Shown here: one piece after another, positions 13,331 through 18,014 of the stretch
Layout of the letters: each line of letters begins with the position of its first letter
How positions within the stretch are numbered: the first letter of the stretch is position 1
The notes under the pieces: generated by a model
The model's input: the letters and a program-made list of their open reading frames with translations, nothing else
Told to the model about the DNA's origin: nothing
Databases searched by the model: none
NCBI GenBank assembly: GCA_025451455.1
Contig: JANWKI010000080.1
Span: forward strand, 1-44,804
Direction of reading: 5' to 3'
DNA: 44,804 nt
Origin: Ignavibacteria bacterium
Lineage (GTDB): Bacteria > Bacteroidota > Ignavibacteria > Tepidaquicellales > OLB5
Made by a program: the position numbers and the translations under genes

Positions 13331-13903
13331 TTACCTGATGCGCTCTATCGGTTTTTTCCTTTCATTCTTCTGATCAATAGTTTCAATTATCTTAAGCATT
13401 CTTTGAGCATCCTCATAATTCGGATCGCTCTTCGGAACGTTCCTCAGGTACTTCCCCGCAAGCCTGTATTCCTTTTGTTCGAATAATTTGACTCCCCTCC
13501 TGTAATGAATTGAAGTTTCCGGGTCGATTTCTTTGGGTGGCTCGGTAATTGAAACCGAGTCAGTTGTAATAGTTTCTTCCTTTGTATCTCTCTTGTATTC
13601 AGTATCTTTCTTTTTATCAACGGTTCTGTCATCTGATCCATTAATAAGGAAAAACACTGCAGCTCCCCCAATGGCAATAACCATCATAACTGCCGATAAT
13701 AGTATGCTCCTCCCGGCACAGCCTGATCTTTTCCCGGAGGAGGTTTCACCTCCGGCTCGGAACGGGTTGCTGTAGAACGGCTGGATAAATTCTTTATAAT
13801 AAGCCGGGTCGTTCTTCTTATAATGTTCGGCAAGTTCATAAAAATACTGACGGCTTGACTGCCAGTACATTTCCAGTTCCTGTTTTGAGGGACCGCTTGC
13901 CAT
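13331..13903 (-). CDS. Single-TM hypothetical protein, paralogue 1
   Basis: MASGPSKQELEMYWQSSRQYFYELAEHYKKNDPAYYKEFIQPFYSNPF; central TM (SILLSAVMMVIAIGGAAVFFLI); C-terminal TPR-like tail. Confidence 0.7.
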   Translation of the reverse strand: MASGPSKQELEMYWQSSRQYFYELAEHYKKNDPAYYKEFIQPFYSNPFRAGGETSSGKRSGCAGRSILLSAVMMVIAIGGAAVFFLINGSDDRTVDKKKDTEYKRDTKEETITTDSVSITEPPKEIDPETSIHYRRGVKLFEQKEYRLAGKYLRNVPKSDPNYEDAQRMLKIIETIDQKNERKKPIERIR

Positions 13904-13922
13904 TATATAATTTCAATATTCA

Positions 13923-14498
13923 TCATTTATCGTATTTTCTCAGGAACTTAAGGCTCTCAAGAAGCTGTTTTGACTGTTCGTAATACTGCGTGCCGGGCTT
14001 GACCTGTTTTAAGTGGTACTCTGCCTTATCGTAATCTTTTTCCCCGATCTTCTTCGAGCCGATTATGAAATGATCATCGGATGAAAGTGAGGAATTATCA
14101 TCCTTATCGGAATCATCGTTCTTTGAAGTTTTAGTATCATCTTTCTCTTTAGTTACAACTTTATCTTTCTGATCCGATTTACGGTCTTCCTTATCCGGTT
14201 TATCAATAGATTCCGTTTCATCTGTGGAGTACTTACTGATCACAAAATACGCAGCAACTCCGCCAATCCCCAGAATAAAGAAGAATATCACTATTACAAC
14301 GAGTAGTTTTGCCGCTCCGCTGCTTCCGGTTTTACCGCCAGTGGATGCATTACCCATTGGGTTATCATAAAAGGGCTGCATATTAGTTCTGTAATATTCG
14401 GGGTCAGCCTGTTTATAATATGCTGCCAGTTCATCAAAATACTGACGGCTTGATTGCCAGTACATTTCCAAATCCTGTTTAGATGGTCCGCTTGCCAT
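13923..14498 (-). CDS. Single-TM hypothetical protein, paralogue 2
   Basis: MASGPSKQDLEMYWQSSRQYFDELAAYYKQADPEYYRTNMQPFYDNPMG; same architecture as the neighbouring gene. Confidence 0.7.
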   Translation of the reverse strand: MASGPSKQDLEMYWQSSRQYFDELAAYYKQADPEYYRTNMQPFYDNPMGNASTGGKTGSSGAAKLLVVIVIFFFILGIGGVAAYFVISKYSTDETESIDKPDKEDRKSDQKDKVVTKEKDDTKTSKNDDSDKDDNSSLSSDDHFIIGSKKIGEKDYDKAEYHLKQVKPGTQYYEQSKQLLESLKFLRKYDK

Positions 14499-15377: not shown

Positions 15378-15407
15378 TTGACATAAAGCAAGAAATTATT
15401 ATATTTG
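15378..15407 (+). promoter_or_regulatory. Bacteroidota-type promoter for the ncRNA candidate
   Basis: TTG(15378-15380)-N19-TATATTTG(15400-15407). Confidence 0.65.
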
Positions 15408-15412
15408 CAATA

Positions 15413-15546
15413 GAGTAACACAAAGAGAAACACGGTTCTTTTTATAATATAAAGATTATGGCAACGGGAGTTAGCTAGGTAAGGGTGGCTAACGTTTTTA
15501 GTAAGAATGCTCCCAGTATTCTGAAAGAACCTGTTGCCTTTTTATT
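15413..15546 (+). ncRNA. Candidate structured small RNA with terminator-like 3' end
   Basis: No convincing ORF; nested stems ggcaac/gttgcc (15460-15465/15533-15538), gggag/ctccc (15466-15470/15510-15514), ttagc/gctaa (15471-15475/15488-15492), then a T-run; crossing pairing ggttcttt/aaagaacc (15434-15441/15524-15531); promoter immediately upstream. 5' end is inferred. Confidence 0.6.
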
Positions 15547-16321: not shown

Positions 16322-16562
16322 AAAATTTCCTTATTTACAGGTGCCTGAAAGCCTGTTCAATTTAGTCTTAGCTTCAGATATTGCAAGTATGTTTTTGATA
16401 AAAATATTTAATCTTTCAATCATAATGCACGCCCCTTTACAACAAATATATATTATTGAAACTTGTTATGTAAAAGAAAGATTTTCAGCGTTGTCGAATG
16501 CGGTCATAGCGATATTATTGGATTCTGTACAAAAAATAAGGTATTATAGGGTAATTTGTCGA

Positions 16563-18014
16563 ATGAACATGGAACTTGAAGACTCAAAATTAATTATCAT
16601 GCTGAAAGCTTTCGATAAAAATGAACTCGAAAAGCTTGAAAATTACATAAATTCGCCATTTTTTAACACCAGCGAACAGCTAGTCACGTTTTTCAAAATG
16701 CTTAAGAAAGAATACCCTCACTTTGAAGGTTTGGATAAGAGGGCAATTTTCAGTAAGATATATCCAAAAGAAGAATTCATGGATAAGAGGATCCGTGACC
16801 TCCAGTCAAGAATGCTGGGGCTTGTTGAGAATTTCCTGGCGCAATTGGAGTTCATGAAACAGGATTTGCTTATCAGCAGGCTGACATTGCAGCAGCTGGC
16901 TGAGAGAGACCTTGAAAGACATTTCACAGACAAGATCAAAGAAACCGGTAAAAAGATGGATAAGGGAAAAATTATAAACAGCATGAACCTTTTTTCCAGG
17001 TATTCATTCTTCAAGCAAAAAAGAAGCTATATGCAGAAATTCAAAGCTCTTGGCAAAAGAAATGAGAACTATGAAGACATAACGGAAGAAATTGACCTCT
17101 TCGTTGACTATACGGTTTATAAAATTCTTAAATATGCACTTATATCCAAAGGCCAGGATATGAGTATAAAACAGGATTATGATTTCAAGATGCTGAATTA
17201 CATTCTTGAATATCTTAAAGACCGCCCGCTTGAGGATAATCCTGTAATAAAGATCTTAATCAACATGATAATCTTAAGCAATGACGAAGATGACGATGCT
17301 GCATATTACATAATAAGAGATCTGCTTAAAGATAATATTGATTTTATAGATAAAGAGGATCTGAGATATATTTATATAGAACTTTATAATTTTACAAAAA
17401 TCCGTTCACTTAAAGATAAGCCCGAATTCAAGAAGGAAAACTACAGGATATTAAAAGAGTCAATTGAAAACGGCCTTTATCCTTTGGATGGAAAATACCT
17501 GGCAGAAAGTTCATACATGACCATCATCGGTTCCGGGTTACAGGAGGGTGATTTTGAATGGACTGAGAATTTCATGGAAAAATATAAAAACATGCTTCAG
17601 CCGGAACTAAGGAACAATGCATATGATTTCTGTAAAGCCACCTTCAATTACAGGAAAGGGAATTACGGAGAAGCTTTGAAAGGGCTTTCTAAGGTTTCTA
17701 TTGATGATTTCTATTACCAGCTAAGGGTAAAGAATCACCAGCTTAAGATATATTATGAGACCGGTGATTTTGAAATGGCAAAGAACATTATTGATTCTTA
17801 CCGGCATTTTCTCTCTACAGCTAAATTCCTTCCTGATTTCGTTAAAACCAGGTTTGTAAACTATGTTAATTTCACAAGCAGGCTTGTAAATATTCAATTA
17901 GGCGGAGAAAGGAAAAACCTCGGAGATATTACAGAAGAGATCAATCATATCAACCCTAGTGTTATAGAGAACAAGTCGTGGCTGCTGGAGCAGATCAGTA
18001 AGTTTAAAATGTAG
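16563..18014 (+). CDS. Alpha-helical hypothetical protein (TPR-like)
   Basis: Long ORF; MNMELEDSKLIIMLKAFDKNELEKLENYINSPFFNTSEQLVTFFKML looks like a Bacteroidota conserved hypothetical; start moved to 16563. Confidence 0.6.
   Translation: MNMELEDSKLIIMLKAFDKNELEKLENYINSPFFNTSEQLVTFFKMLKKEYPHFEGLDKRAIFSKIYPKEEFMDKRIRDLQSRMLGLVENFLAQLEFMKQDLLISRLTLQQLAERDLERHFTDKIKETGKKMDKGKIINSMNLFSRYSFFKQKRSYMQKFKALGKRNENYEDITEEIDLFVDYTVYKILKYALISKGQDMSIKQDYDFKMLNYILEYLKDRPLEDNPVIKILINMIILSNDEDDDAAYYIIRDLLKDNIDFIDKEDLRYIYIELYNFTKIRSLKDKPEFKKENYRILKESIENGLYPLDGKYLAESSYMTIIGSGLQEGDFEWTENFMEKYKNMLQPELRNNAYDFCKATFNYRKGNYGEALKGLSKVSIDDFYYQLRVKNHQLKIYYETGDFEMAKNIIDSYRHFLSTAKFLPDFVKTRFVNYVNFTSRLVNIQLGGERKNLGDITEEINHINPSVIENKSWLLEQISKFKM

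Follow-up and report, generated by a model that had tools for sequence, protein, structure and literature searches.

Organisation of the locus

The window, a stretch of 44,804 nucleotides from an Ignavibacteria bacterium, contains a compact transcription unit at positions 15378–15546, which can be divided by sequence inspection into a promoter, a roughly 50-nt leader and a core with secondary structure (15460–15543); all features described below lie on the + strand unless stated otherwise. The predicted promoter (15378–15407) comprises TTGACA at 15378–15383 and TATATTTG at 15400–15407. Comparison of 14 orthologous loci shows a putative promoter of the housekeeping type, with TTGAC and TATATTTG invariant in all of them, and the Bacteroidota-type promoter recognised in a preliminary description of this DNA is confirmed by these key bases. 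The stretch had also been described as non-coding with a terminator-like 3′-end, and both statements hold: an ORF check of the window found no ORF of at least 40 amino acids covering the core, and the closing stem of the fold (P1) is followed by a T-run at 15539–15543, forming an end that resembles an intrinsic terminator and whose T-rich character is conserved. Because P1 runs directly into the T-run, the RNA would serve as its own terminator. The predicted folding energy of the 142-nt stretch is −36.8 kcal/mol, compared with −27.0 ± 3.4 kcal/mol for shuffled sequences (z = −2.86). Positions 15378–15546 are best read, at the level of sequence, as a real and strongly conserved small RNA gene with a predicted product of about 85 to 135 bases.

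At the primary locus, a gene on the opposite strand lies upstream of the RNA. Downstream come an acyl-carrier-protein-like gene, likewise on the opposite strand and recognised by eye from its sequence (Pfam gave no match), then a small gene, a long one of unknown family, and sufB. The RNA gene and the acyl-carrier-protein-like gene are convergent, and no same-strand gene starts within about 0.85 kb in the window, which indicates that the primary RNA is not a leader. Two tandem paralogous genes of unknown family on the minus strand (13331–13903 and 13923–14498) both encode proteins starting with MASGPSKQ, and at most primary loci their relatives flank the RNA gene. Between the RNA gene and sufB, most primary loci conserve a 557-amino-acid ORF (16341–18014 in the window) that has no Pfam match.

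A covarying three-way junction

A core of 81–84 nt is common to about 25 copies of the RNA, and consists of P1 ending in U's, P2, a short P4 and P3. In alignment A4 (21 sequences, 18 of them distinct), the four stems comprise eight (P1; nine in the window), six (P2), four (P4) and six (P3) pairs, and 96.9% of cells are paired. Changes on both sides with pairing retained were found at 17 of the 24 pairs, the number of double-change cells was 65 as against 19.8 ± 3.3 in shuffles, and pairing fell to 38–53% when the partners were slid by one to three columns. This covariation makes a firm case for a predicted three-way junction, in which P1 and P4 would stack toward P3 while P2 branches off.

The two strands of P1, GGCAACGGG (15460–15468) and CCTGTTGCC (15530–15538), covary and are paired in 97% of cells. 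The P2 hairpin (15470–15493) has the stem GTTAGC/GCTAAC, with two-sided changes at five of its six pairs and 99% pairing, and a loop at 15476–15487 (TAGGTAAGGGTG). This 12-nt loop, UAGGUAAGGGUG, is the same in every copy except the diverged copy L061. In P4, TTTT (15496–15499) pairs with AGAA (15526–15529), and the second of these pairs is double-changed in eight of 18 sequences. The P3 hairpin (15505–15521), GAATGC-TCCCA-GTATTC, also shows changes on both sides at five of its six pairs (94% paired) and exposes UCCC in its loop. The loop UCCCA is conserved with minor changes: every copy other than L061 (AUCCC) reads CUC[CU]C, and two copies have UCUC. The loop has five nucleotides at most, and a U-A closure may shrink it to three in the minimum-energy fold. 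In L061 (G008:C84:1534–1613) the P2 loop has changed to UAGUUAGGGUA, but this copy retains GGAG, P4, the UCCC part and the CGUUCUUAGUA joiner; it is possibly decaying, or has a changed partner.

The fold differs in part from that proposed in the preliminary description, which comprised four stems. Two of these, ggcaac/gttgcc and ttagc/gctaa, correspond to P1 and P2 and covary, whereas the pairing of ggttcttt (15434–15441) with aaagaacc (15524–15531), which was thought to cross the outermost stem, is complete only in the copy of the window: the relatives mostly carry AAAAAACC or AACGAACC opposite the invariant GTTCTTT, and the 3′ letters of the proposed helix covary instead with P4 at 15496–15499. 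The crossing pairing is absent from the relatives, and the pseudoknot or switch between two conformations built on it is not supported. The remaining stem, gggag/ctccc, overlaps and competes with P1 and P2. Its GGAG and CUCC are nearly invariant and pairable in 98.6% of cells, but no covariation was seen, which is explained by bases that hardly vary; the columns concerned in a GGG/CCC loop-loop contact and a GGAG/CUCC pseudoknot are likewise nearly invariant. On the core, the earlier nested fold was calculated at −14.7 kcal/mol and the minimum-energy fold at −31.2 kcal/mol, a difference of 16.5 kcal/mol in favour of the latter. A pseudoknot or two-state switch, whether formed by ggttcttt/aaagaacc or by gggag/ctccc against the nested fold, is therefore highly unlikely even though the window has complementary sequences for both pairings, as the first is broken in relatives with its segments accounted for by P4 and a boxA-like motif, and the second clashes with P1 and P2. 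Elements additional to the earlier fold are P3, the boxA-like motif, the invariant 12-nt loop and the extra genomic copies.

Distribution of the RNA family

The window gave no match to Rfam 15 at gathering thresholds and no meaningful match at E-values up to 10, the best chance match being to a snoRNA (15.2 bits, E = 8.7). By BLAST, the RNA was found in all 15 genomes of its own GTDB family, which span its three genera; the genome of the window, 64% complete, contains a second copy. A covariance model (R1) built from 13 copies detected 25 clear places in the 15 family genomes (61–106 bits, one to five per genome), two of which are contig-end fragments in one genome.

Outside the family, the sister family and about 390 genomes of the class yielded only weak model hits and no credible homologue. 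The weak hits at the level of the order lacked the P2 loop, a class-level match (L062) overlapped the end of a TolC-like ORF, and a match in Treponemataceae (L076) gave no hit with the covariance model; the latter two were rejected as chance matches. A pattern scan of one genome per species across about 85,000 species returned 21 stretches from Ignavibacteria and two chance matches. The P2-loop pattern immediately ahead of a 16S rRNA gene of Gemmatimonadota (L067, 5684–5709) suggested a link to rRNA leaders, but was also discarded as chance, the corresponding sequence in relatives being CAGGTAAGAGTG or lost. L067 is a 16S leader in which the exact P2-loop pattern occurs shortly behind the boxA, but is not conserved in relatives. 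The RNA family thus appears to be restricted, within the genomes searched, to one uncultured family of Ignavibacteria. Standalone small RNAs (sRNAs) are a known kind of bacterial gene; this family, however, is absent from Rfam and appears to be new. The suggestion that the locus encodes a novel sRNA is upheld by the lack of an Rfam match, the presence in 15 of 15 family genomes, the covariation, and the conserved promoter and terminator of its own.

Genomic context of the primary and additional copies

Each g1 and g2 genome contains one syntenic copy with the invariant promoter and the boxA-like motif. The extra copies lack the boxA-like motif and adjoin unrelated genes, including those for S6/UvrA, an Omp28-like protein, YchF, a DUF2958 protein and a secreted protein, with no common downstream gene; two of the places recur, each in two genomes. 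A −10-like element (TATATTTG, TATAAT or a close variant) begins 10–13 nt ahead of P1 in seven of ten extra copies. This places the predicted transcription start of the paralogous copies at or next to P1, which makes the 84-nt core the probable working part; the comparison of copies points to the core as the functional RNA, with a leader specific to the main copy.

Each genome has between one and five copies at unrelated sites, which could suggest the RNA of a self-spreading mobile element or guide system. Such an origin is extremely unlikely, since no recognised transposase, recombinase or mobile-element nuclease domain was found among the neighbours scanned, no copy was detected in viral contigs, phages or plasmids, and the primary copy is syntenic.

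The “orphan switch” of the preliminary description, if it is taken to act in cis, is contradicted by the gene context. A compact junction with nearly invariant loops does resemble an aptamer, and P1, followed by a T-run, could be pictured as a ligand-stabilised terminator. A cis-acting riboswitch or attenuator would nevertheless be expected at a conserved position upstream of functionally related genes, whereas the gene beyond the primary copy is convergent with it, and the extra copies share no downstream gene. Gene context largely refutes this reading, which is rated highly improbable.

In two species, orthologous copies (L002, 233–313; L027, 1506–1586) lie 25–35 nt past the stop codon of an Omp28-like gene, and may therefore also end that mRNA. 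Together with P1 and its T-run, this position could indicate an elaborate terminator or 3′-end stabiliser without a function in trans. A terminator would, however, have no need of a 12-nt loop that is almost invariant, nor of a further conserved hairpin, and the primary copy, with its own invariant promoter, terminates only itself, making this explanation very unlikely.

A boxA-like motif in the leader and complementarity to 16S rRNA

The segment of the 5′ leader previously assigned to a pseudoknot arm, GGTTCTTT (15434–15441), contains the motif GTTCTTT (15435–15441). GTTC[TA]TT is invariant across the 14 primary loci, which represent two genera, while the rest of the leader varies in length and sequence. 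The published boxA consensus is GYTCTTTAANA (PMC5725501), and the 16S leaders of three family genomes carry ACGTTCTTTCAACAA at the expected place. Since the leader motif fits both GYTCTTT and the family's own 16S leaders, we infer that it is a boxA; in the primary copies only, the RNA carries the consensus near its 5′-end, as the rRNA leader does. The three 16S leaders (L088, L089 and L090) are strongly conserved; behind ACGTTCTTTCAACAA they have a hairpin rich in A/T and a CTTCTTGAGTT element. Known boxA elements occur in rRNA operons and mRNAs such as suhB, whereas the unit described here is about 135 nt long and has its own terminator; non-coding RNAs were left out of account in the published list of boxA targets (PMC5725501).

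The P2 loop contains UAGGUAAGG, which has nine contiguous bases complementary to a conserved 16S segment, CCUUACCUA (approximately E. coli positions 979–987), and ten in the primary copies. Shuffled P2 loops reach nine in 0.7% of cases in 16S rRNA and in 3% in the rRNA operon. This complementarity is a lead only. It would suit an RNA tied to ribosome production, in which a boxA-like leader, sharing GTTCTTT with the 16S leader, precedes a loop that pairs with 16S rRNA during assembly or sequesters an assembly or Nus factor. The match was found post hoc and is of modest significance, however, and the invariance spans 12 nt rather than nine. The most diverged copy, L061, breaks the 16S match, and the extra copies do without boxA. 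In addition, the 16S segment concerned is paired in the mature 30S subunit. A link to ribosome production is accordingly considered unlikely, and slightly less credence is given to its more specific form, a boxA-tagged, lineage-specific sRNA acting through the near-invariant loop on ribosome assembly, with the 16S precursor or a Nus or assembly factor as its partner.

A probable trans-acting sRNA

The own promoter and terminator, the absence of an ORF and the lack of a conserved same-strand downstream gene are the sequence features of a trans-acting sRNA. The most probable explanation, held with moderate confidence, is that the locus is the main copy of a family of independently transcribed, trans-acting sRNAs specific to this family of Ignavibacteria, with a P2 loop that recognises a constant partner, a UCCC seed and synthesis coupled to Nus factors. 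Action in trans would take place without Hfq, which was undetected in 15 family genomes by a search that found it in five of 14 controls, including E. coli and B. subtilis. The near-invariance of the 12-nt P2 loop suggests one constant partner, either a protein or a constant RNA, for which the loop may be the docking site. A 10% sample of one genome showed no enrichment of P2-loop complements at start regions, in a comparison of low power. Judging from its sequence and position, the boxA-like motif of the main copy may tie synthesis of the RNA to the Nus factors acting on rRNA.

The UCCC loop of P3 could function as a seed, by analogy with Gram-positive sRNAs such as LhrC, RNAIII and RsaE, pairing with the Shine-Dalgarno (SD) sequences of the SD-bearing minority of mRNAs and thereby lowering their translation. 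The 16S tail retains CACCUCCU. Among 188 long ORFs, 12.8% are preceded by GGAG, as against 1.6% in a control interval; SD sequences are thus present, but only at a minority of genes, and a UCCC seed could select a subset of mRNAs. The invariance of both loops could equally reflect the binding of a ligand or protein only.

UCCC as an SD-binding seed and a multicopy design are established for LhrC of Listeria, whose stability and binding to lapB are independent of Hfq (PMC4132741). LhrC and the other UCCC-loop sRNAs RNAIII, RsaE, SprD and FsrA (PMC4132741) resemble the present family in being multicopy and terminator-ended and in exposing UCCC in a hairpin loop that, here, is conserved among copies. 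They differ in that the RNA described here forms a three-way junction, has an additional 12-nt loop that is almost invariant, and belongs to a lineage whose genes mostly lack an SD sequence; the likeness does not extend to a demonstrated relation in sequence or fold. Chlorobi-1 (RF01696), Chlorobi-RRM (RF01697), Bacteroidales-1 (RF01693) and Flavo-1 (RF01705) are likewise lineage-restricted structured RNAs recognised by comparison, with functions that are not known, but none of them matches the window. 6S RNA (RF00013, RF01685) is also a small standalone RNA, but has no match at the locus, and its long rod with a central bubble contrasts with the branched junction and the several copies found here. 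No 6S RNA above the cut-off was detected in seven genomes of the family or five of the sister family, and because it is undetected in both, the idea that this RNA replaces 6S draws no information from its absence.

No paper on the sRNAs of Ignavibacteria was found in a literature search. The RNA described here is a well-supported family absent from Rfam, in a lineage for which that search found no described sRNAs and in which Hfq is undetected, and it comes with a covariance model ready for use, as well as a defined primary locus and two conserved loops. It is unusual for a short non-coding RNA to bear a conserved boxA-like motif. If expression is confirmed, the family would offer a route to sRNA action without Hfq in a lineage with few SD-bearing genes, and if the ribosome-assembly reading were true, it would represent a trans-acting sRNA linked to the rRNA antitermination machinery.
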